Assembly (NCBI GenBank): GCA_014384565.1
Contig: JACNFO010000024.1
Span: forward strand, 1 to 64,000
Reading direction: 5' to 3'
Source of the DNA: Candidatus Pseudothioglobus aerophilus
GTDB taxonomy: Bacteria; Pseudomonadota; Gammaproteobacteria; PS1; Pseudothioglobaceae
DNA length: 64,000 bases
Below the pieces are notes generated by a model that made no database searches, had not been told where the DNA came from, and worked only from the letters and a program-made list of their open reading frames with translations. The translations under genes and the position numbers were made by a program. Shown here piece after piece: positions 10,601-55,451 of the stretch (the stretch's first letter is position 1; every line of letters begins with the position of its first letter).

Positions 10601-11860
10601 GTATCAAGATCTTCTGAAGCCTCAATTAGAAATGAACTAGGCCAAGTAAAAGAGCGCTATAAGTTGCCTTATGGAGCTATTGTTCACTTTAAAGATGGTG
10701 GCAAGGTCAAGGCTAAAGATAAGATTGCTGATTGGGATCCGCATACACACCCAATAATAGCTGAAAATTCTGGAAGAGTTTCATTCATTGATTTTGTTGA
10801 GGGTTTAACAGTTGTTAAAAACTCAGATCCTTTGACTGGTTTAATCTTCTTTGAAATAATTGAGGAAGCACAAAGAACTTCAGCAGCAAAAGATATGAAG
10901 CCAATGCTTCAATTGGTTGATAAAAAAGATAAAAAATTGATATTGTCAACGCACTATTTGCCGTCCGGAGTTAAAATAAATCTAGAAGATGGACAGCTTA
11001 TTGATGCAGGTTCAATACTTGCTAAGATTCCTAAAGCAGTTTCAAAAACAAGTGACATTACTGGTGGTTTGCCAAGAGTTGCTGATTTATTTGAAGCACG
11101 TAAAGCTAAAGATCATGCGATTCTCGCAGAAACTGTTGGTGTTGTTAGTTTCGGAAGTCCTACAAAGTCTAAAGTTCGCATGCTTATTACGAGTGATGAT
11201 GGTGATGTAACTGAAATGATGATTCATCATTGGAGGGCAATCAACGTATTTGATGGTGAAACTGTTGAAAAAGGTGATGTGATTTCTGATGGCCCATATA
11301 ATCCCCATGATATTCTCCGCTTATTAGGCGTAGAAGCTTTAGCTAACTATATGGTTAGAGAAGTTCAAAATGTTTATCGACTTCAAGGAGTTAAGATATC
11401 AGATAAGCATATAGAGGTGGTCGTTAAGCAAATGCTTAGAAAAGTTGAAATTATCGATAATGGAGACTCAAACTATGTAAATGGCGAAACAGCTGAATTT
11501 GTTCATGTTGTAGAGAAGAATAAGCAGTTGAAGGCACAGAAGAAAGATGAGATTGTATTCCAAAGATTGCTAATGGGTATTACAAAAGCATCTTTATCTA
11601 CTGAATCATTCATCTCTGCTGCTTCTTTCCAAGAAACTACAAGAGTTCTTACTGAGGCTTCAATAACAGGAAGAGTAGATGATCTTAAAGGTCTTAAAGA
11701 GAATGTAATTGTAGGTAGACTTATTCCTGCCGGCACTGGCTTTAAACACCATCAGGAAAAGAGAAAGAAGCGCATAGACGCCTCATTTATGCAAACGAAT
11801 GATGCTGAGCAAGAGCTATCTGCTCAGTTGAGTGAAGTTGAGGCTGAAGTGGAAGAGTAA
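7673..11860 (+). CDS. rpoC: DNA-directed RNA polymerase subunit beta-prime
   Basis: This is the catalytic beta-prime subunit, 1395 residues. The N-terminal zinc-binding cysteines are C70, C72, C85 and C88. The magnesium-chelating motif NADFDGDQM lies near residue 459. The second cysteine cluster (CGTKNG near 815, then [11 protein letters not shown] near 888) and the trigger-loop region are intact. The start is TTG, supported by AGGAG a few bases upstream and by alignment to the family N-terminus ([11 protein letters not shown]). Confidence 0.99.
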
Positions 11861-40557: not shown

Positions 40558-41214
40558 ATGAGTATCTCGCAAGACACAAAAGAGTTAAATTCATATATCA
40601 ATAAAAAAGTTGATATTGAATCAGTTGCTTCTTTTAAAGGCAATGAGCACATTATCAAATTAAATCTTAAGTTTGATATTAATCAAATGCGCGAAGCACT
40701 TGATGAAGTTAAAGCTATGTCAGAGTTTAAAACTGCTGCGTCAGGTTTTCACGCTCTTGCGATGACTCGCAGAAAGAATAGCTCTGTTGAGTCTGATAAT
40801 AACCTTGTGGGTCGCTACTATACTCGCTTAGATGATAGCTATGAAGAGATAGCCAAGGATGAGTTAGTTGATGAGGCTTCATTTACTGAGCTTGTTGAAG
40901 TGTTTAAGGGTACTTATTTTGAAACTATTCACAAGGAGCTATCAGTTCGTTACCCTATTGGAAGGGTTCGCATATTAGAAAAAGATAGCTTTAATTGCAA
41001 TTCATGGCATAGAGATCCTGAGCCAAGGATACATATTCCAATTTATACAAACCCTGGTGCTTTATTTATAGTAAACCATCACTGCACCCACCTTCCTGCT
41101 GATGGCTCCGTATATTTTACGGATACGAGGGGTTACCACACCGCCCTTAATGGTGGAGATGAGTCTAGAACCCATCTCGTAGCCACTTTAGCCTATCCAG
41201 AATACCAACCTTAA
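40558..41214 (+). CDS. Aspartyl/asparaginyl beta-hydroxylase-like 2-oxoglutarate dioxygenase
   Basis: The 218-residue soluble protein shows the facial-triad spacing of Fe(II)/2-oxoglutarate dioxygenases. H151-x-D153 lies in SWHRDPEPRIHIPI, the distal H194 in GYHTALNGGDES, and R204 fits the 2-oxoglutarate salt bridge. This layout matches the aspartyl/asparaginyl beta-hydroxylase-like fold, in which small bacterial members hydroxylate free amino acids or peptides. No signal peptide is seen. A threonine-aldolase-family gene follows by 13 nt, implying a beta-hydroxy amino acid product. The substrate is unknown. Confidence 0.75.
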   Translation: MSISQDTKELNSYINKKVDIESVASFKGNEHIIKLNLKFDINQMREALDEVKAMSEFKTAASGFHALAMTRRKNSSVESDNNLVGRYYTRLDDSYEEIAKDELVDEASFTELVEVFKGTYFETIHKELSVRYPIGRVRILEKDSFNCNSWHRDPEPRIHIPIYTNPGALFIVNHHCTHLPADGSVYFTDTRGYHTALNGGDESRTHLVATLAYPEYQP

Positions 41215-41227
41215 GTGTAAAACAGTT

Positions 41228-42289
41228 ATGAGCCAATATAAGAAAAATATAAATAACCAAGAGAAATTAGAGAGTCCAATAGATTTTCGAAGTGATACAG
41301 TTACTTTGCCATCCCATGAAATGCTTGCAAGTATCAATAATACCAAGCTTGGAGATGATGTTTATGAAGAGGATATCGAAGTAATCGAACTGCAAGAATA
41401 TGCAGCAAATCTCTTAGGAAAAGAAGCAAGCTTATTTTTTCCTAGTGGCACTCAAAGTAATTTAACTGCTATGCTCGCCCATTGTCAAAGAGGCGATGAA
41501 GTTTTGATTGGTAGGCATTATCATACAAATGTTTATGAGGCTCGAGGCGTTTCAGTTTTGGGAGGTGTGGGGATTTGCCCTATTGATACTTCAGCATCTG
41601 GATCTATGAAAGTAAGCGATATGCTCAGTCAGATTAAAGCTAACGATCCTCACTATGCCGTAACAAAACTTCTTTGTTTAGAGAACACTTTTTCTGGAAA
41701 AGTTCAACCTCAAAAGGAACTTGATGCATTGGCAAAAGCTGCACATAGTAAAGGCTTAAAAGTACATTTGGATGGCGCTCGCTTATTTAATGCACATATA
41801 CACTCAGGTCTAACAATGAAGGCTTTGACAGAAAGTTTTGACAGTATATCAATATGTTTATCAAAAGGCTTAGGCGCACCAATTGGGTCTCTTTTAGTAA
41901 GTGATCAAGCTACCATTAATAAAGCCTTGCGATTACGAAAGATGCTTGGCGGCGGCATGAGACAAGTTGGCGTTATCGCTGCTTATGGAATGTATGCTTT
42001 AAAGAATAATATAAAGAGGCTTCAAGAGGATCATGATAATGCAAAATATCTTGCTAGTGGCCTGTCATCAGTTTCTGAATTAACTATAGACTATGGTGAA
42101 AATCAAACAAATATGGTTTTTGTGGATTGTCCAGAACTGCACAGAGATAGCTTAGAAAGACATCTTTTTGATAGAAATATTATAATTTCTAATCTTGATC
42201 GAGGAAGGCTAGTATGCCACTTAGGAATTAGTAAAGAAGATATTTTGGTGGTTATTAATGCCTTTAAAGATTATTTTAAAAATATTTAA
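41228..42289 (+). CDS. ltaE: Low-specificity L-threonine aldolase family enzyme
   Basis: The 353-residue PLP enzyme has the family N-terminus IDFRSDTVTLPS, GDDVYEED, SGTQSNLTAM, LDGARLFNA (182-190 with PLP-contact D182) and the Schiff-base lysine K213 in SKGLGAP. Members cleave threonine, allo-threonine and other beta-hydroxy-alpha-amino acids to glycine plus an aldehyde. Co-location with a dioxygenase that could make such substrates is notable. Confidence 0.88.
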   Translation: MSQYKKNINNQEKLESPIDFRSDTVTLPSHEMLASINNTKLGDDVYEEDIEVIELQEYAANLLGKEASLFFPSGTQSNLTAMLAHCQRGDEVLIGRHYHTNVYEARGVSVLGGVGICPIDTSASGSMKVSDMLSQIKANDPHYAVTKLLCLENTFSGKVQPQKELDALAKAAHSKGLKVHLDGARLFNAHIHSGLTMKALTESFDSISICLSKGLGAPIGSLLVSDQATINKALRLRKMLGGGMRQVGVIAAYGMYALKNNIKRLQEDHDNAKYLASGLSSVSELTIDYGENQTNMVFVDCPELHRDSLERHLFDRNIIISNLDRGRLVCHLGISKEDILVVINAFKDYFKNI

Positions 42290-42293
42290 ATTA

Positions 42294-43055
42294 TTAGATA
42301 AGAATTTGGTCTAAAAAAGTTTTAGTTCGATCACTTTTTGGGTTATTAAAGAATTCGTCTGGAGTATTTTGCTCCACAATCTCCCCGTCTGCCATAAATA
42401 TTATCCTGTCTGCAACTTGCCTTGCAAAGCCCATTTCATGAGTAACGCAAATCATTGTCATGCCGCTAGTTGCAAGCTCGACCATGGTATCTAAAACTTC
42501 TGAAACCATTTCGGGGTCTAGCGCCGAAGTTGGCTCATCAAATAACATGACTTTAGGCTCCATACATAAGCTTCTAGCAATAGCAACTCGCTGCTGCTGA
42601 CCACCAGATAGTTGATCTGGATATTTGTCCGCCTGCTCTGGGATCTTGACTTGTTCAAGCATTGCAACCGCTCTTTTTTCCGCTTCTTTTTTATCAATTC
42701 CTCTGACCCAGTTTGGACCAGCCATGCAGTTTTCAAGGACAGTTAAGTGTGGGAATAAATTAAAATTTTGAAATACCATTCCAATGTCTCGTCGAACAAT
42801 ATCAACATCTTTCATGGTTTCATGAAGCTCAACTCCGCTAACATGAATTTGACCTTCTTGATGAGCTTCAAGTCGATTTAGGCATCGAATTAGAGTCGAT
42901 TTTCCTGAACCAGATGGGCCACAGATGACAATTTTTTCTTTTAGATTTATTTCAAGATTTATATCTTTAAGTGCCTGAAAATCCCCATACCATTTGCTGA
43001 CACCATCCAGTGATATAACAGGGTTTTCAATTTTAGTTTTAGCACTCACAATCAA
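42294..43055 (-). CDS. Polar amino acid ABC transporter ATP-binding protein
   Basis: The 253-residue ATPase has Walker [10 protein letters not shown], signature LSGGQQQR, Walker B VMLFDEP and the H-loop VTHEMGF, the GlnQ/HisP pattern. It overlaps the permease gene by 4 nt (ATGA). With the permease and binding protein upstream it forms a three-gene importer for a polar amino acid or similar compound. Confidence 0.93.
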
Positions 43056-44029
43056 GCCTTCTGTTGGTATTTTCTTTCAATGCGCGCTTGAATCATTTCA
43101 AGAATGATTGTCAGGGCCCAATAAATCATTGCAGCTGTAAGTAACATTTCTAAATTATTGAAATCTTTCGCGCCTATTTTTTTGGCCATGAACATTAACT
43201 CCCAAATCCCAAGAACAGAGACTAAAGAACTATCCTTAAGCATTGCAATAAATTGGTTGCCGGTTGGTGGAACTATAATTGGTATTGACTGGGGTAATAT
43301 AATTTTTCGAAGTATCAGCCCAAACTTAAAGCCCAATGCTCTTGAGGCCTCCCATTGCCCTTTTGGTATGCTTTGAATACCTGCACGAAAAATCTCCGTC
43401 ATGTAGGCACCATAACAAAGTGACAGAGCTGCAATACCAGAAGGAATAGCATCAATCATGAATCCTAGTTGAGGAAGACCCATATAAATTAGATAAATTT
43501 GTAGAAGAAGAGGGAGTCCTCTAAATAAAGACGTATAAAAACTTGCTATCGCATAAGCAAAGCCATTATTTGAAAGTTTAGCAATAGCTCCAACGATTGC
43601 TATAGCAGTAGCAATTGCAATTGAAACTGCTGATATATAAATCGTAGTAAAAAGACCCTTGGAAATCATAAGCCAAAGTTTGCTTGGCTCGCCGATAAAT
43701 ATATAGGCTAACTCAAGATCAAAAGAGTAGGCAAAAGCAAGAAAAAGAAAAAACAATTCAATCCAAACAATGAGTATTTGAATTTTCAACCTAGCAAAGC
43801 TAATTAATAATAAATTTAGGACAAATATTATTGAAAGTACAAACGAAACAACCAGTCGTCCAAAAAACCCGCTTTCTTTTGGATTTCCAATAACTGGGCT
43901 GAGGAATTCTCCAAATATGGTGTCGGTAAGATTAAAGGCAAAGAAAAACGCCAATACCGCTATTGATAATCCTAAAAGGAACGCTGGTTTGTGCAGCGAC
44001 TTATCTTCAATAACGGTATCAACGAACAT
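43052..44029 (-). CDS. Polar amino acid ABC transporter permease with extended N-terminus
   Basis: The 325-residue membrane protein has the HisM/GlnP-type permease domain in its C-terminal two thirds. It includes [20 protein letters not shown] and the EAA loop [22 protein letters not shown]. About 100 extra N-terminal residues with roughly three hydrophobic segments precede it; single-domain homologues such as HisM are about 240. Only one permease gene is present, so it should work as a homodimer. AAAGG precedes the start. Confidence 0.9.
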
Positions 44030-44074: not shown

Positions 44075-44932
44075 TTAAAACGCAATAGTGTAGTCATTTG
44101 AACTACCATCTGCGTTTTTAAACCACTTCATTGACATCATTGTCAATGTGTAGTCTTTTTTCATAGCAGCAATAATTCTAGCAATCTCTGCATCTAACTC
44201 AGGGTCATCATTACCTTTGTCAGTTGCTACTGAAAGAGGCTCAAAGAAAGCAGGGTCACCCAAGAAACGAATTGGGTATCCATCTTCTATAGCGCCTTGA
44301 ATCATCGGAATAGAATCAATAATACCGTCATTACGAACACCAGCACCTAGTCGAGTGTCATCCAGACATGTATGACCGTCAGCAAGCGAAGTAATTGTTC
44401 CTGGCGTAACTTTATATTTAAATGCTGGAGCGTCAATCATATCTAGACTTCCTTCAAGATACATTTCCCAAGTTGAGGCTGCTGTAGTACAAACATTCTT
44501 TCCATTTAAACCGGCCAATGTTGTTATAGGTGAATCTGTGTGAACCGCAAAACCAGCTGGAGTGTAATAATAAACTGCCGGGAAGTTGAGTACTTCCGAG
44601 CGAGTTTCTGTTGGCGTCATAGAGCCCACTGATACGTCCCAACGCATATTCCAGTTACCTGAAGTTATAATATCCCATGAAGGAGTAATGAAGCGAGCTT
44701 CTACGCCCATACGCTTAGCAATTTCTCTACCAACATCAACGTCAAAGCCTTCCATTTCGCCAGCATCGTTAATGTATGAATATGGTGCCCAGTTTGCATC
44801 AGTTGCAATCATCAATTCATTGTTTGATTTAATATAATCATAAACTGCACCTGCTTGAACTGTCATGTTTAATGATAATAGCGCGACTGCAAATGCAATC
44901 GACGACTTTTTAAAGCCTAGCTTAATACTCAT
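44075..44932 (-). CDS. Periplasmic amino acid-binding protein of ABC transporter
   Basis: The 285-residue family 3 solute-binding protein has a signal peptide (about 1-28, basic KKSS, hydrophobic core, cut near VQAGA). The fold motif LMIATDANWAPYSYINDAGEMEGFDVDVGREIAKRMG follows. It is the first gene of the minus-strand SBP-permease-ATPase operon. Ligand is unknown; D- and R-type contacts resemble polar amino acid binders. The operon converges with the dioxygenase-aldolase pair. Confidence 0.92.
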   Translation of the reverse strand: MSIKLGFKKSSIAFAVALLSLNMTVQAGAVYDYIKSNNELMIATDANWAPYSYINDAGEMEGFDVDVGREIAKRMGVEARFITPSWDIITSGNWNMRWDVSVGSMTPTETRSEVLNFPAVYYYTPAGFAVHTDSPITTLAGLNGKNVCTTAASTWEMYLEGSLDMIDAPAFKYKVTPGTITSLADGHTCLDDTRLGAGVRNDGIIDSIPMIQGAIEDGYPIRFLGDPAFFEPLSVATDKGNDDPELDAEIARIIAAMKKDYTLTMMSMKWFKNADGSSNDYTIAF

Positions 44933-48464: not shown

Positions 48465-49919
48465 TTACTTAAGTCCGCCCATACAAATGTACTTTAGTTC
48501 GAGAAAGTCATCTATTCCATAGTGCGAGCCTTCTCTGCCTAATCCTGATTCCTTGATTCCACCAAATGGAGCTACTTCATTAGATATGACACCTTCATTA
48601 ACGCCAACCATTCCGTATTCTAAGGCTTCAGATACGCGCCATATTCTATTAATATCGTTTGTATAAAAATAAGAGGCCAATCCAAACTCCGTATCATTAG
48701 CCATATCTATCGCTTCTTTCTCAGTTGAAAATTTGAATACCGGCGCAAGCGGTCCAAAAGTTTCTTCTGTTGCAATTTTCATAGTGCTGTCTGCATTACT
48801 AATGACTGTTGGCTCAAATGTAGTTCCACCATTTTTATGAGGCTTTCCACCTACAGCAACGAGTGCTCCTCGATCAATAGCATCTGACAAGTGGTCTTTA
48901 ACTTTTTCAAGTGCTTTAAGGCTTATAAGCGGCCCTTGATTAACACCCTCATCCATTCCATTTCCAACATTTAGGGTTTTAACTGCTTTTGCAAGTCTAG
49001 TTACAAACTCATCATAAATTCCCTCTTGAACTAAAAAGCGATTAGTACAAACACAGGTTTGCCCAGTATTACGAAATTTTGAAATCATTGCACCTGAAAC
49101 TGCAGAGTCGATATCGGCATCATCAAAGACTATGAACGGAGCATTGCCCCCTAGCTCCATAGATACTTTTTTCATTGTGTCGGCGCAGTTGCGTGTTAGG
49201 ATTTTTCCAACAGCAGTTGAGCCAGTAAATGAAAGTTTTCTAACAATTGGGCTACTGGTTAAGGCTTGTCCAATTTCACTTGAATTAGTTCCAACAACTA
49301 CATTTATTATGCCTTTGGGTACTCCAGCTTGCTCAGCAAGTTCTGCAATTGCTAGCGCTGATAAAGGAGTTTCGGCAGCGGGCTTGATGACAACTGGACA
49401 ACCCGCAGCAAGTGCAGGAGCACATTTTCTGGTGATCATGGCGATTGGGAAATTCCAAGGCGTAATTGAAGCAACAACACCGATTGGCTGTTTAATAACA
49501 AGTATTCTTCTGTCATTTGCGGGCGTTGGAATTATATCGCCATAGGTTCTTTTTCCCTCTTCTGCAAACCATTCTATAAAGGATGCACCATATCCAACCT
49601 CACCCCTAGCTTCTGCTAATGGCTTTCCTTGTTCTGCTGTCATTAATATGGCTAAATCTTCTTGATTTGACATAATTAAATCAAACCATTTTTTTAAGAT
49701 AATTGCTCTTTCTTTAGCAGTTCGGCTGCGCCAATCTGGCCACGCGGCATTTGCTGCATCGATGGCCTCATCGGTTTCTTTTTTACCCATGTCTGGTAAA
49801 GTACTAATTACTTCATTTGTATAAGCATTAGTCACATCAAAGCGTGACTCTGTATCATCACCAACCCACTGTCCATTGATGTATCCGTGAGCTTTTAAAA
49901 GGCTAGTATTTTTGAGCAT
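48465..49919 (-). CDS. gabD: Succinate-semialdehyde dehydrogenase (NAD(P)+) / omega-semialdehyde dehydrogenase
   Basis: The 484-residue aldehyde dehydrogenase has TPWNFPIAMITRK, FTGSTAVGK, the general-base glutamate in MELGGNAPFIVFDDAD and the catalytic cysteine in NTGQTCVCTNRF, closest to GabD. It oxidises succinate semialdehyde from GABA, and GabD enzymes often accept glutarate semialdehyde. It is the last gene downstream of puuA-potFGHI and is the only aldehyde dehydrogenase visible for the diamine pathway here. Confidence 0.93.
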   Translation of the reverse strand: MLKNTSLLKAHGYINGQWVGDDTESRFDVTNAYTNEVISTLPDMGKKETDEAIDAANAAWPDWRSRTAKERAIILKKWFDLIMSNQEDLAILMTAEQGKPLAEARGEVGYGASFIEWFAEEGKRTYGDIIPTPANDRRILVIKQPIGVVASITPWNFPIAMITRKCAPALAAGCPVVIKPAAETPLSALAIAELAEQAGVPKGIINVVVGTNSSEIGQALTSSPIVRKLSFTGSTAVGKILTRNCADTMKKVSMELGGNAPFIVFDDADIDSAVSGAMISKFRNTGQTCVCTNRFLVQEGIYDEFVTRLAKAVKTLNVGNGMDEGVNQGPLISLKALEKVKDHLSDAIDRGALVAVGGKPHKNGGTTFEPTVISNADSTMKIATEETFGPLAPVFKFSTEKEAIDMANDTEFGLASYFYTNDINRIWRVSEALEYGMVGVNEGVISNEVAPFGGIKESGLGREGSHYGIDDFLELKYICMGGLK

Positions 49920-49938
49920 AATTTATCCTTGGATTTAT

Positions 49939-49973
49939 ATTGAACTATAAAGGTGCTAATTATAATGTTCAAT
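49939..49973. promoter_or_regulatory. Inverted repeat in the gabD upstream region
   Basis: ATTGAAC (49939-49945) and GTTCAAT (49967-49973) form an inverted repeat. A minus-strand TATAAT candidate lies within the spacer (ATTATA on plus at 49959-49964). It is a possible operator for an unknown regulator; it does not match the TGTGATCACA motif seen upstream. Confidence 0.25.
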
Positions 49974-49989
49974 TGAGCTGAAATGTTCT

Positions 49990-50793
49990 TCACGTATGTT
50001 GCGCTTTTGGAGTTTGTTGTTTCTGTCGTCTTCCAATTAATGAGGCGGTTATTACGCCTAGAGTGACAACTCCTACTAAGATTGTTGAAACTGCATTTAT
50101 TTCAGGAGTGACTCCTAGCCTTACCATCGAATATATTTTCATTGGAAGGGTTGTAGAGCCTGGACCAGAAGTAAAGCTCGCAATTACAAGATCATCAAGT
50201 GACAGAGTGAAAGATAAAAGCCAGCCAGAGATAACTGCTGGGAGGATTATTGGAAGTGTTATTAGGGTAAACGTTCTAAATGGGGTGCACCCTAAGTCAA
50301 GCGCTGCCTCCGTTAGACTATCATCATAGCTTGACATTCTTGACTGCACAACAACTGCAACATAGCACATTGAAAATGTTATATGAGCCAAAGTCACAGT
50401 AAAAATACCTCGATCAATTGCAAGCGCAACAAACATAAGTAAAGTTGATAGCCCAATGATTACTTCTGGCATAACCATTGGCGCATAGATCATCCCTGAA
50501 AAAAGAGTTCTGCCTTTAAAATTACCAAAACGTGTCATTACCAGACCAGCAATAGTTCCTAAAATTGTTGCAATAGTTGAAGAAAAAAAAGCAACCTTTA
50601 TTGTTACCCAGGCGGCATCTTTGATACCCTGGTTTTGCAATAGCTCGCCATACCACTTAGTTGAGAAACCACCCCAAACTGTAACTAATCTTGATTCATT
50701 AAAGCTAAATAAAATTAATAATATTATTGGTATATATAAAAATGAAAAACCAACAATCAGTGAGAAAATATTGAAGCTACCAAACTTTTTCAT
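49990..50793 (-). CDS. potI: Putrescine/polyamine ABC transporter permease PotI
   Basis: The 267-residue membrane protein has six hydrophobic segments and the permease EAA loop EAALDLGCTPFRTFTLITLPII. SFTLSLDDLVIASFTSGPGSTTLPMKIYSMVR is typical of PotC/PotI. It overlaps potH by 4 nt. It pairs with PotH to form the channel of the importer. I use the putrescine (FGHI) names because puuA, puuB and spuC flank the cluster. Confidence 0.93.
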   Translation of the reverse strand: MKKFGSFNIFSLIVGFSFLYIPIILLILFSFNESRLVTVWGGFSTKWYGELLQNQGIKDAAWVTIKVAFFSSTIATILGTIAGLVMTRFGNFKGRTLFSGMIYAPMVMPEVIIGLSTLLMFVALAIDRGIFTVTLAHITFSMCYVAVVVQSRMSSYDDSLTEAALDLGCTPFRTFTLITLPIILPAVISGWLLSFTLSLDDLVIASFTSGPGSTTLPMKIYSMVRLGVTPEINAVSTILVGVVTLGVITASLIGRRQKQQTPKAQHT

Positions 50794-51704
50794 GAGATTG
50801 CCTTCTCTTGTGATCTCTGGTAAAGCATTATTGGGACAACGAGAATTGCAAGTAGAAGGATTGCGACTGCTGAGGCCACTGGCCAGTCTCGGTTATAGAA
50901 AAACTCTGTCCAAAGAACCTTTCCAATCATTAGCGTTTCAGAGCCGCCAAGTAAATCTGGGATTACAAACTCACCCATAACTGGTATAAAAACCAAGAAG
51001 CAGCCAGCGATAATTCCAGATAGAGATAGTGGAACAGTTACTGTCCAGAAGGCTTTAAAGGGTCTGCACCCAAGATCAGCCGCAGCTTCTAATAAACTCA
51101 TATCCATTTTTTCAAGATTTGCATACAGAGGCAGAATCATAAAAGGCAGATAAGAGTATACAATGCCAATATAGACTGCAAGATCAGTGTTCATTATCAT
51201 GAGTGGCTGTTCAATAATTCCTATGGACATTAAAGCTAAGTTAAGTAAGCCCTCCGTCTTTAGTATTCCAATCCACGCATAGACTCGTATTAAAAAAGAA
51301 GTCCAAAACGGAAGAATAACCAGCATGAGAAGTATTCCTCGCCATCGGGTGGGCGCTCTTGCGACGCTGTAAGCTATTGAGTAGCCTATTATTAGGGTTA
51401 GTATTGTTGAAATAAAGGCAATTTTTAAACTTGAAAGATAGGCCTTAATATACAAAGAGTCACTAAAAAGAAATAAATAGTTATCAAAGCTTGCTTTAAT
51501 TGAAGGTAGCCATGAATCTCCCCAAATTAGAAGCGAGGAATATGGCGGCCTTGCATAAATTGTTTCTGCAAAACTTATTTTTAAAACATAGATAAAAGGC
51601 AGTAAAAAAAGCAAAAGCAGCCAAATATATGGAATTGCAATTACGGCGTTTCTTCCATTAAAGATACTTTTAAAAAAATTTGGATTTGTTTGCATAAGCT
51701 TCAC
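50790..51704 (-). CDS. potH: Putrescine/polyamine ABC transporter permease PotH
   Basis: The 304-residue permease has an N-terminal membrane helix and a periplasmic loop. The EAA loop is EAAADLGCRPFKAFWTVTVPLS, and the C-terminal FIPVMGEFVIPDLLGGSETLMIGKVLWTEFF is highly characteristic of PotB/PotH. It begins 6 nt after potG and overlaps potI. Confidence 0.94.
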   Translation of the reverse strand: MKLMQTNPNFFKSIFNGRNAVIAIPYIWLLLLFLLPFIYVLKISFAETIYARPPYSSLLIWGDSWLPSIKASFDNYLFLFSDSLYIKAYLSSLKIAFISTILTLIIGYSIAYSVARAPTRWRGILLMLVILPFWTSFLIRVYAWIGILKTEGLLNLALMSIGIIEQPLMIMNTDLAVYIGIVYSYLPFMILPLYANLEKMDMSLLEAAADLGCRPFKAFWTVTVPLSLSGIIAGCFLVFIPVMGEFVIPDLLGGSETLMIGKVLWTEFFYNRDWPVASAVAILLLAILVVPIMLYQRSQEKAIS

Positions 51705-51710
51705 AGGAAG

Positions 51711-52841
51711 CTAAGAAAGAAGGACCACAGCAGAATGCGGCGCCCATTGAAGGTAAACTTCATCATCCCATGTTAAATGGTGCTCTTTAGTTCGTTCACG
51801 ATTTGCACGTATTGCTTTTAAGATTCTTCCATTATCTAGTTTGACATGGTAAGTGGAAAAGCTCCCTCCATAGGCAATATCTTCAATCGTTCCTTTTAAT
51901 ATATTGTGATCATGAGATGGCGCTACTTTAGATATTTCAAGTTTTTCTGGCCTTATTGCAAACCACATTTCATCTTCAACTGAGGCGCCAACCTCTTGTG
52001 TTGCAAACACAATTGAATTTGAATCTTCAGAAAACAACTGAGTGCCAACTTCATTTTGTCCTTTGTAGATCCCCTTTAATATATTAACATCACCTATAAA
52101 GTCAGCAACATCCTTGTTAATTGGTGCTTCATAGATTTCTGCGGGTGTTGCAACTTGAACTAAATTTCCAGAATCCATAACGCCGATCCTACTTGAAACA
52201 GTCATCGCCTCTTCCTGGTCATGGGTAACAATAACAAAAGTGACCTCTAGTTTTTCCTGAATATCCATTAATTCAAACTGAGTTTGTTCTCTCAACCTTT
52301 TATCGAGTGCTCCTAAAGGCTCATCAAGAAGTAGTAATTTTGGACGCTTGGCAAGGCTTCTTGCAAGAGCAACCCTTTGACTTTGACCACCAGAGAGCTG
52401 ATTAGGTTTACGATTAGCAAAGTCAGTAAGCTCAACAAGCTCGAGCATTTCTTCTACTCTTTGATTAATCTCGTTAGCAGGAAGATTGTCTTGCTTTAAT
52501 CCAAAGGCAATATTTTTTTCAACAGTCATATGAGGAAAAAGCGCGTAGGACTGGAACATCATGTTAATTGGTCTTAGGTGAGGAGGTATTTCAGATATAT
52601 CTTCTCCATCCAAAAGAATCTTGCCATTAGTGATTTTTTCAAAGCCTGCAAGCATTCGAAGGAGCGTTGTTTTTCCGCAACCAGAAGGACCCAGTAAAGA
52701 GAAAAATTCATTTTTATAGATATCTAGAGTTAAATTATCAATTGCTGTAAATTCACCAAACCGCTTGGTGACATTTTGAATTTGAATGTAGGGTTTATGA
52801 CTTGAATCGAGCCAAGGGCTGACTTTAATAGTTTCAGACAT
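51711..52841 (-). CDS. potG: Putrescine/polyamine ABC transporter ATP-binding protein PotG
   Basis: The 376-residue ATPase has Walker A GPSGCGKTT, signature LSGGQSQR, Walker B LLLLDEPLGALD and H-loop VTHDQEEA, followed by a TOBE regulatory domain (WFAIRPEKLEISK, GTIEDIAYGGSFSTYHVKL). The layout is PotA/PotG. It follows an intrinsic terminator after potF, so its level should be below that of the binding protein. Confidence 0.95.
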   Translation of the reverse strand: MSETIKVSPWLDSSHKPYIQIQNVTKRFGEFTAIDNLTLDIYKNEFFSLLGPSGCGKTTLLRMLAGFEKITNGKILLDGEDISEIPPHLRPINMMFQSYALFPHMTVEKNIAFGLKQDNLPANEINQRVEEMLELVELTDFANRKPNQLSGGQSQRVALARSLAKRPKLLLLDEPLGALDKRLREQTQFELMDIQEKLEVTFVIVTHDQEEAMTVSSRIGVMDSGNLVQVATPAEIYEAPINKDVADFIGDVNILKGIYKGQNEVGTQLFSEDSNSIVFATQEVGASVEDEMWFAIRPEKLEISKVAPSHDHNILKGTIEDIAYGGSFSTYHVKLDNGRILKAIRANRERTKEHHLTWDDEVYLQWAPHSAVVLLS

Positions 52842-52854
52842 AGAATTATGATTA

Positions 52855-52890
52855 TTAAAAACCCTCCATGATGCAAAGCATCATGGAGGT
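52855..52890 (-). terminator. Rho-independent terminator/attenuator between potF and potG
   Basis: Read on minus, CCTCCATGATGC-TTT-GCATCATGGAGG is a perfect 12-bp stem followed by TTTTTAAT. It lies 16 nt after the potF stop and before potG, a common way to overproduce the binding protein relative to the membrane complex. Confidence 0.85.
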
Positions 52891-52905
52891 AATAGTAGTT
52901 TAAAG

Positions 52906-53997
52906 CTACTGACCTGTTGTAACTTTAGTCCAGGTACGTGTTACCACTCTTTGAGATTTGGAATCGTATGTTGGGCTAATGTATAAACCTTCCATAACCT
53001 CAGGTGTTGGGTAAACCGCTGGATCATTTAGAAGATCTTCCTCTAGGAGAGGTTGAGAGGCTAGATTACCATTCGCATACCAAACATAGTTTGTTGCTGT
53101 TGCAATTTGCTCAGGATCCATTATCCAGTTAATATACTTATGTGCATTATCGGCATTAGGAGCGTCATCTGGAATTGCTAATTGATCAAACCACATCAGC
53201 GCGCCTTCATCAGGAATCGAATAAACGATTTCTACGCCATTTTCCGCATCCCAGGCTGCATATTGAGCCATAAACACATCACCCGACCAGCCAACAACTA
53301 GACATATATCTCCATTGGCAAGAGCATCAATGTACTGAGATGAGTGAAATTTTTGAATGTACGGACGAATCTTGGTCAAGACAGCTTCTGCTTTAGCTAT
53401 AACATCCGAATCAGTGCTTCTTGGGTCCTCACCAAGATAAGCAAGTGCTGCAGGAATTATTTCAGTTGGTGCATTTAGAAGATGAACGCCGCAATCGGCG
53501 AATTTTGAAACAACATCTGGATCAAAGACCATAGCAAGAGAGGTTGTAGGTGCATTCTCCATCCTTTCATTAATCAAGCCTTCGTTGTAGCCAATACCTG
53601 TTGTTCCCCACATGTAGTTAACAGAGTAGTCATTTAGAGGACCAAATTGTGCTACCTGCTCTTCAATATCGCTCCACATGTTTCCAATATTTGATAATTT
53701 TGATTTATCCAATTTTTGGAAAACACCCGCTTCAATTTGACGCGCTAAGAAACTACTCGAAGGAACGACAACGTCATACCCAGAGCTTCCTGCAAGAAGC
53801 TTAGCTTCTAGGACTTCATTAGAATCGAACACATCATAGACAACCTTAATGCCTGTTGCAGCTGTAAAGTCTGCATTAACCTGCTCATCAATATAATCAG
53901 ACCAGTTTAGAACATTAACTACTTCTTCTGCAATTACAGCTTGAGCAGTAAATGTTAACGCTCCAGCAATAAGTAGATTATTTAATTTATTTTTCAT
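52906..53997 (-). CDS. potF: Putrescine-binding periplasmic protein PotF
   Basis: The 363-residue protein has a signal peptide (MKNKLNNLLIAGALTFTAQAVIA, cut near residue 23). The PotD/PotF fold follows, with VVNVLNWSDYIDEQVNADFTAATGIKV, SGYDVVVPSSSFLARQIEAGVF, CLVVGWSGDVFMAQYAA and PDEGALMWFDQLAIP. W37-S38-D39-type residues and the later aspartate of this family bind diamines. It has AAGGAGAG before the ATG and a TATAAT candidate upstream, so it may also have its own promoter. Confidence 0.94.
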   Translation of the reverse strand: MKNKLNNLLIAGALTFTAQAVIAEEVVNVLNWSDYIDEQVNADFTAATGIKVVYDVFDSNEVLEAKLLAGSSGYDVVVPSSSFLARQIEAGVFQKLDKSKLSNIGNMWSDIEEQVAQFGPLNDYSVNYMWGTTGIGYNEGLINERMENAPTTSLAMVFDPDVVSKFADCGVHLLNAPTEIIPAALAYLGEDPRSTDSDVIAKAEAVLTKIRPYIQKFHSSQYIDALANGDICLVVGWSGDVFMAQYAAWDAENGVEIVYSIPDEGALMWFDQLAIPDDAPNADNAHKYINWIMDPEQIATATNYVWYANGNLASQPLLEEDLLNDPAVYPTPEVMEGLYISPTYDSKSQRVVTRTWTKVTTGQ

Positions 53998-54092
53998 TAT
54001 TACTCTCCTTTTATTTTATTTTTACTAACTGGATTATATTAAAGTTTATTCTTTAATATGCACTTTTTTTGAAATTACAATTCAATCATATA

Positions 54093-55451
54093 TTAAAGAT
54101 GCCTTAAATAAGAGTTATATTCGAAGTCAGTAATCGTACTTTCAAATCTTTTTATCTCAGATTCTTTGACACATTGATAGGATTTTTGAAACTTTTCACC
54201 AAAAAATTCTTTAACTACTGAGGATTCACTTGTTTTATGAACAGCTTCTCTCCAGGTTATTCCTAATGCAGCTTCATGCTGCGCATGAGCATTCCCAATA
54301 GTTTCTTTATCAAGTGGATATTTATTTGTAATTCCTGACAAAACACTTGAAAGAATGGACGCGAATACTAAGTAAGGATTCGAGTCTGCACTTGGAAGTC
54401 TAAACTCTAAACGCGTTGCTTTTGAGGATGCCTCAGGCAATCTTACTAGGGCAGTCCTATTTTCATTACCCCAGCTTAATGTTGTTGGAGCGTGATCTGC
54501 ATTATGAACTAAACGTCGATATGAATTTGAGTGTGATGCATAAAAAGAAAGAAAATCAGGGGCATTCTTTAAAAGGCCCGCAATAGAGTTCGCAAAGATA
54601 CCTTGAGGCTGTTTATCTTTATTGACTGAAAAAACATTGTTACCATCTTTATCAATAATGCTAAGGTGCGCGTGCATACCGTTGCCAGCTTGATCTGAAA
54701 AAGGTTTGGCCATAAAGGTGGCATTCATATTAAATTGTCTAGCGCAGTTTTTAATTAAGCGTTTCATTAAAAAGGCCTGATCAGCCATCAAGAGGGCGTC
54801 ATCATGATGTAGTAAATTAATTTCAAATTGTCCAGGTGCACACTCCTTGATGGCAGTCTCAGAAGGAATCCCTAGAGAGTGAGAACTTTTTTCTACTAGG
54901 GCAAAGAAGCTTTCAAAGTCATCCATCTCATTCAAGTTGAGAAGCTGAACATCTTCATATCTTCTGTTAGTGCCTGGAATGATTGGCATTTGTGGATGGC
55001 CATTTTTTTGCAATTGCTTATCAACAAGATAAAATTCCATTTCAGGAGCAATAACTGGCTTTAAATTAAGCTTTTGAAAACGCTCAAGTACTGAAGATAG
55101 GATTTGCCTTGGGTCTGCATAAATTGCCTCTCCATCACCGTTTTCCATACTAACAAGGCACTGGGCTGTCTTACGAGTACTCCATGGCGTGACTGCTAGT
55201 GAACTTATAACGGGCCTACATATTGCATCACCGTCACCTGACATTACCAGCCCAGTTCCCTTAGGGTTGTCACCCCAAACATCAAGTACATAGCTCGATA
55301 TAGGCATTTTAAGGCCACCATCAAAAGCTTTAATTAAAGTTTTTGGTGAGGCATATTTGCCTCTTGGGATACCATTAAAGTCAACATAGATAAACTCAAC
55401 TTTTTCAAGGTCAGAGTGCAGTTCTAAAAATTTTTTTGCAATATTTTCCAT
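54093..55451 (-). CDS. puuA: Gamma-glutamylputrescine synthetase (glutamine synthetase family)
   Basis: PuuA ligates glutamate to putrescine using ATP, the first step of the Puu pathway. The 452-residue protein has the GS-like beta-grasp start (YVDFNGIPRGKYA). The catalytic core shows APEMEFYLVD, CAPGQFEINLLHHDDALLMADQ, HATFMAKP-like NATFMAKPF, GNGMHAHLSI and LEFRLPSADSNPYLVFASIL. Length and motifs fit PuuA better than GlnA. It is first on the minus strand of the island, divergent from the GntR regulator, with that regulator's presumed operator at its promoter. Confidence 0.9.
   Translation of the reverse strand: MENIAKKFLELHSDLEKVEFIYVDFNGIPRGKYASPKTLIKAFDGGLKMPISSYVLDVWGDNPKGTGLVMSGDGDAICRPVISSLAVTPWSTRKTAQCLVSMENGDGEAIYADPRQILSSVLERFQKLNLKPVIAPEMEFYLVDKQLQKNGHPQMPIIPGTNRRYEDVQLLNLNEMDDFESFFALVEKSSHSLGIPSETAIKECAPGQFEINLLHHDDALLMADQAFLMKRLIKNCARQFNMNATFMAKPFSDQAGNGMHAHLSIIDKDGNNVFSVNKDKQPQGIFANSIAGLLKNAPDFLSFYASHSNSYRRLVHNADHAPTTLSWGNENRTALVRLPEASSKATRLEFRLPSADSNPYLVFASILSSVLSGITNKYPLDKETIGNAHAQHEAALGITWREAVHKTSESSVVKEFFGEKFQKSYQCVKESEIKRFESTITDFEYNSYLRHL

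Follow-up and report, generated by a model that had tools for sequence, protein, structure and literature searches.

What do two adjoining genes, one for a small iron-dependent dioxygenase and the other for a threonine-aldolase-type enzyme, accomplish together in a marine bacterium? The question is raised by a stretch of 64,000 nucleotides (hereafter the window; positions 1 to 64,000 of contig JACNFO010000024.1) from Candidatus Pseudothioglobus aerophilus, whose genome is a 1.47-Mb draft that is 91% complete, and whose named relatives (80-98% identity) belong to 'Candidatus Thioglobus', the SUP05 cluster and the PS1 clade, several having been assigned to Pseudothioglobaceae. On the forward strand, behind a hemJ-type gene (UPF0093), lies an AspH/Cpz10-like Fe(II)/2-oxoglutarate dioxygenase of 218 aa (40558..41214), followed after 13 nt by a threonine-aldolase-type PLP enzyme of 353 aa (41228..42289). 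Tail to tail with this pair, on the reverse strand, stands a polar amino acid ABC importer consisting of an ATPase (42294..43055), a permease of a rare subtype whose N-terminus is extended by about 115 aa (43052..44029) and a family-3 substrate-binding protein resembling Lys/Arg/Orn-binding proteins (44075..44932). The gene pair, motif residues and 13-nt spacing claimed in the initial annotation are all present, as judged by the open reading frames, the invariant residues and the alignment with Cpz10, and the importer that it saw converging on the pair does so, with 4 nt between the aldolase end and the ATPase gene end. A scan for promoters and terminators around the pair returned fewer promoter-like sites than the chance number and no usable signal. 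Downstream of the importer, a GabD-like aldehyde dehydrogenase (ALDH), a PotFGHI-like transporter and a glutamine-synthetase-like PuuA gene form a putrescine-type cluster (48465-55451). We considered its ALDH (48465-49919) as a pathway member and rejected it, since it stands with these PuuA- and Pot-like genes.

Our analysis suggests that the pair is quite likely a two-enzyme catabolic module, in which an imported free amino acid undergoes hydroxylation and then retro-aldol cleavage. With O2 and 2-oxoglutarate, the dioxygenase would hydroxylate a free amino acid at its beta carbon; the aldolase would split the resulting beta-hydroxy amino acid into glycine and an aldehyde; and, in this genus, the convergent importer would supply the substrate. 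From the enzymes' identity, active-site residues, fold and gene order, all of which are described below, we infer that the two act in sequence and on a free amino acid. The aldolase requires a free alpha-amino group, as its PLP chemistry dictates, and therefore the substrate should be a free amino acid if the enzymes do act one after the other.

The dioxygenase carries the expected active site. Its iron ligands would be H151 and D153, within the H-R-D codons at 41008..41016 (forward strand, as are all codons given here) that align with Cpz10, together with H194 (41137..41139), while R204 (41167..41169), aligned with the arginine changed in the Cpz10 mutant 7v4o, is the proposed ligand of the 2-oxoglutarate carboxylate. 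All four residues are conserved without exception among 51 aligned relatives from alpha-, gamma- and actinobacteria and phages. Cpz10, a small-molecule beta-hydroxylase of caprazamycin biosynthesis (PDB 7v4f; PMC9814697), is the only solved sequence relative (E 2.5e-18, about 27% identity); the two have the HRD...H...R motif in common, and the positions altered in the deposited Cpz10 mutants are precisely those that correspond to D153 and R204. An AlphaFold2 model (pLDDT 92, pTM 0.88) matches Cpz10 best (TM 0.88); L-proline cis-4-hydroxylase and proline 3-hydroxylase come next, ahead of human AspH, so that the closest folds, as far as the model tells, are those of small-molecule and free-amino-acid hydroxylases. 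With its HxD...H triad, distal arginine and double-stranded beta-helix, the protein is a Cpz10-like Fe(II)/2-oxoglutarate enzyme; Cpz10 differs from it in acting on a nucleoside antibiotic intermediate, in antibiotic biosynthesis. The likeness to human AspH is one of family and of the double-stranded beta-helix fold: PF05118 is matched by 44 of the 51 dioxygenase relatives at E<=0.01, although the window protein scores 19.3 bits, below the gathering cut-off of 22.6. Unlike the AspH-type protein hydroxylases, it gives no TPR-domain match anywhere in its 218 residues and has the HxD motif; AspH is described as lacking the usual iron triad (PMC13168262), its iron site being without a carboxylate ligand. 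The window dioxygenase has no match to TIGR02410 (trimethyllysine dioxygenase, TMLD) and none in PHROGs, and no residue was found in it that would fix the substrate.

Relatives of the dioxygenase also occur in at least 428 viral contigs, at about 35-45% identity and with the same SWHRDPE motif; these include L146-L225 and phage Mosig EXVC030M (L061, 4007-4609). Thirteen sampled viral copies form one separate clade, and none of the 13 has an aldolase beside it.

The aldolase is a fold-type-I PLP enzyme whose nearest structures are solved threonine aldolases. It passes PF01212 with 295 bits, the LtaE model NF007825 with 366 bits (cut-off 312) and the GntG family model NF041359 with 384 bits (cut-off 230), the last being a broad model that also matches in E. 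coli. With E. coli LtaE and mouse Tha1 it has in common the fold type and the catalytic lysine, K213, whose codon at 41864..41866, in an S-K-G motif, encodes the PLP Schiff-base residue that is invariant among linked aldolases. It differs from them in its operonic dioxygenase and in the residue just before the active-site histidine (Y98-H99 codons, 41519..41524): position 98 is tyrosine in 40 of 44 dioxygenase-linked aldolases, whereas it is alanine in 8 of 9 generic threonine aldolases sampled. In the tree the linked aldolases form a near-clade, which also takes in unlinked, relocated copies from dioxygenase-bearing Kiloniella genomes. In a close relative (L066 / L002) the aldolase is split into two frames, through a frameshift or a sequencing error of the metagenome-assembled genome (MAG), with the dioxygenase intact.

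Is the pairing more than an accident of one genome? Linkage across related genomes had been set beforehand as the check, and it proved to be conserved. The dioxygenase is present in 23 of the 29 genomes of the genus and in none of the 54 genomes from other genera of the family, and the aldolase adjoins it in 22 of those 23 cases. In four further genus genomes (G007, G014, G015, G025) no dioxygenase was found, and the aldolase directly follows hemJ with the importer kept in place. In the remaining case, G028, the aldolase stands alone at the usual place, and the dioxygenase is flanked by a GbcA-like Rieske oxygenase gene and by a LysR gene, with ProVW-like and sarcosine-oxidase genes adjoining. 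These dioxygenase-free loci and the separated genes of G028 imply that either part can function on its own. The importer adjoins the aldolase even where the dioxygenase is missing; in G010, G024 and G026 other genes take its place.

Outside the genus, a scan of species genomes returned at least 577 dioxygenase relatives, and the analysis retained the best 80. At 29 of 66 non-genus loci an aldolase lies downstream on the same strand, and 28 of these 29 abut the dioxygenase, the exception (L142) being 2 kb away. The linked lineages comprise Rhodobacteraceae/Roseobacters, Kiloniellaceae, Kordiimonadaceae, Neomegalonema, Oceanospirillaceae and Pseudomonadales, and many linked loci in Rhodobacteraceae, Kordiimonadaceae and Neomegalonema show a 4-nt start/stop overlap (ATGA). 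Linked loci are dispersed across the dioxygenase tree, with 15 changes of state; well-supported branches force at least 3 of these. More than half of the non-genus loci are without an adjacent aldolase, some having an MmgE/PrpD or DddP-like gene instead, and 18 of 22 sampled genomes with such a dioxygenase hold a threonine aldolase elsewhere.

These other companions are of some interest in themselves. The commonest is an MmgE/PrpD-family gene, found at 25 of the 66 non-genus loci, whether or not an aldolase is present (L104, L108, L110, L116, L125, L138, L085, L090, L098, L115 and others). In the SAR324-like loci L112, L122, L128, L134 and L143, a DddP-like M24 protein directly precedes the dioxygenase; it scores 430 bits against a DMSP lyase cut-off of 600, and Rieske and MttB-like genes occur in several of these loci.

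The idea that the substrate is imported, put forward in the initial annotation, gains support. The family-3 binding protein, the permease and the ATPase identify the transporter as a polar amino acid importer, and the best curated model for the binding protein is Lys/Arg/Orn-binding. At E<=1e-45 no permease of this type turned up in 273 other gammaproteobacterial genomes, and 12 of 50 dioxygenase-bearing genomes have one, a contrast that is suggestive only, the two samples differing in taxonomy. Moreover, importer orthologues (49-72% identity) adjoin the dioxygenase in two other gammaproteobacterial lineages. In one, an Oceanospirillaceae genome (L082), the importer (51-72% identity) is divergent beside a dioxygenase-aldolase-ALDH row; in the other, a gammaproteobacterial MAG (L119), a five-gene operon runs from the dioxygenase, across 7 nt, to a TMLD-like dioxygenase, the binding protein, the permease and the ATPase. 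In three Kiloniellaceae-type genomes the importer adjoins or follows a TMLD-like gene, and the dioxygenase-aldolase pair lies elsewhere in the genome. Orthologues in other genomes keep varied gene company, and the importer is therefore not tied to one pathway everywhere; in this genus it probably brings in the substrate of the pair.

Which amino acid might this be? Quaternary-amine genes recur near the dioxygenase across lineages, among them MttB-like methyltransferases, GbdR-like regulators, GbcA-like Rieske oxygenases and sarcosine oxidases. An intact ALDH gene stands directly behind the aldolase in L082 only, and its best models are betaine-aldehyde dehydrogenase and aminobutyraldehyde dehydrogenase. 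A remnant of the same arrangement is found in L139, where the start of the aldolase (~48 residues) runs on, within one short open reading frame (10645-11091), into the C-terminal portion of a protein resembling betaine-aldehyde dehydrogenase; the fusion, whether made by deletion or by assembly, would imply a former aldolase-ALDH neighbourhood, and we take it as a faint hint. Hydroxytrimethyllysine is a substrate of the mouse and E. coli threonine aldolases (PMC11016064), and free trimethyllysine has been reported in seaweeds (PMC3890275). These observations, together with the operons that combine TMLD-like and importer genes, make N6-trimethyllysine (TML) the leading candidate, and the best single one when set against other basic or methylated amino acids, but we put it forward tentatively. 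For concreteness, TML would be converted to 3-hydroxy-TML, this to glycine and 4-trimethylaminobutanal, and the aldehyde to gamma-butyrobetaine.

The eukaryotic carnitine route (TMLH, HTMLA and TMABADH) follows the order of steps proposed here, namely 2-oxoglutarate-dependent beta-hydroxylation, PLP-dependent retro-aldol cleavage and then an ALDH, and in L082 the hydroxylase, aldolase and ALDH genes stand in a row. The bacterial hydroxylase of the pair differs in being of AspH/Cpz10 type, unrelated to TMLD, and TML is for it a candidate substrate. It is conceivable, if somewhat doubtful, that marine proteobacteria possess a TML route equivalent to the first half of eukaryotic carnitine biosynthesis, in which an AspH/Cpz10-type hydroxylase replaces or accompanies TMLD, the Tyr98 aldolase serves as HTMLA, a betaine-aldehyde-type ALDH yields gamma-butyrobetaine, and a dedicated importer supplies the substrate.

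The TMLD-like enzymes bear directly on this reading. Genes over the curated TMLD cut-off occur in 14 of the 29 genus genomes (for example L256 8090-9205, L258 8011-9111 and L259 337-1464) and several relatives also have TMLD-like enzymes; the gene of L119 has TMLD as its best model at 246 bits (cut-off 268), and the Kiloniellaceae-type genes likewise fall below the cut-off of TMLD, their best curated model. In the window's own draft genome such genes are absent. We looked for complementarity, a genome holding either the dioxygenase or the TMLD-like gene, and did not find it; many genus genomes hold both. The TMLD-like enzymes of the same genomes could thus perform the TML step, leaving a related substrate to the AspH-like enzyme.

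This leads to the alternative that survives best, and which we regard as entirely possible: the two-step chemistry acts on a substrate other than TML, be it lysine, ornithine, arginine, a methylated lysine or arginine, or a sulfonium analogue such as S-methylmethionine, while the TMLD-like enzyme takes TML. It is a sub-case of the two-enzyme module rather than an alternative to it. Since the two hydroxylases occur together in many genomes of the genus, and also within the L119 operon, they may differ in substrate, and the Lys/Arg/Orn-binding model of the binding protein points the same way; but the quaternary-amine neighbours and the betaine/aminoaldehyde-type ALDH fit a quaternary ammonium side chain, and the parts list of a carnitine route is exactly two dioxygenases, an aldolase and an ALDH.

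A second family of dioxygenases in the genus might seem to complete such a route. TIGR02409 (gamma-butyrobetaine dioxygenase) is matched over its cut-off in 23 of the 29 genus genomes. We rejected these matches as proof of carnitine synthesis: where examined, the gene has an HD-domain gene as neighbour or fusion partner, and the L257 copy also scores above the TmpA cut-off (436 against 400), which points to use of 2-trimethylaminoethylphosphonate. Judged by sequence, the gene is more likely TmpA than a gamma-butyrobetaine dioxygenase. TmpA/TmpB-like pairs, with predicted 2-trimethylaminoethylphosphonate use, lie at 7978-9680 in L257 and 11467-13173 in L254, and are fused in G010.

Could the two genes be no more than co-regulated neighbours, an ordinary low-specificity threonine/allo-threonine aldolase beside a dioxygenase with an unrelated small-molecule job? 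The LtaE score of the aldolase, its retention without the dioxygenase in four genus genomes and the many relatives that have no adjacent aldolase would all be natural on such an account. It leaves aside, however, the same-strand adjacency that recurs across classes with overlapping codons, the distinct Y98 near-clade formed by the linked aldolases, and the retention of both genes in Kiloniella after their separation, and we consider it unlikely.

Two further readings can be treated briefly. In guanitoxin biosynthesis a GntG-family aldolase cuts the product of the 2-oxoglutarate hydroxylase GntD, and the window aldolase, whose GntG family score exceeds its LtaE score, matches that family model; that the pair is likewise biosynthetic, making a secondary metabolite, is nevertheless very improbable, the model being so broad and the surroundings of the pair being catabolic, with importers, LysR/GbdR-type regulators and catabolic oxidases in place of biosynthetic genes and with no other gnt genes seen. 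Equally remote is modification of a protein or peptide in the manner of human AspH, for which the relation to PF05118 speaks, but against which stand the small size of the enzyme without the AspH TPR domain, its nearness in fold to Cpz10 and the free-proline hydroxylases, and its occurrence in operons alongside ALDH, aldolase and importers of small molecules.

The preferred reading remains that of a catabolic pair acting in sequence on an imported free amino acid. Among the matches listed in searches of the open literature there was no description of such a hydroxylase-aldolase pair, which is not proof of absence. The pair is a widespread operon in marine bacteria, occurring in Pseudothioglobus/PS1, Roseobacters, Kiloniellaceae and Oceanospirillaceae, and the combination of the dioxygenase with a Y98 aldolase provides a genomic marker, whatever the substrate. 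According to the literature, carnitine biosynthesis has not been observed in prokaryotes (PMC8085414). If TML or a similar methylated amino acid is indeed degraded, the pair would represent a prokaryotic counterpart of that pathway, and a means for ocean bacteria to exploit an amino acid known from algae, tied to the cycle of betaine and methylated amines.
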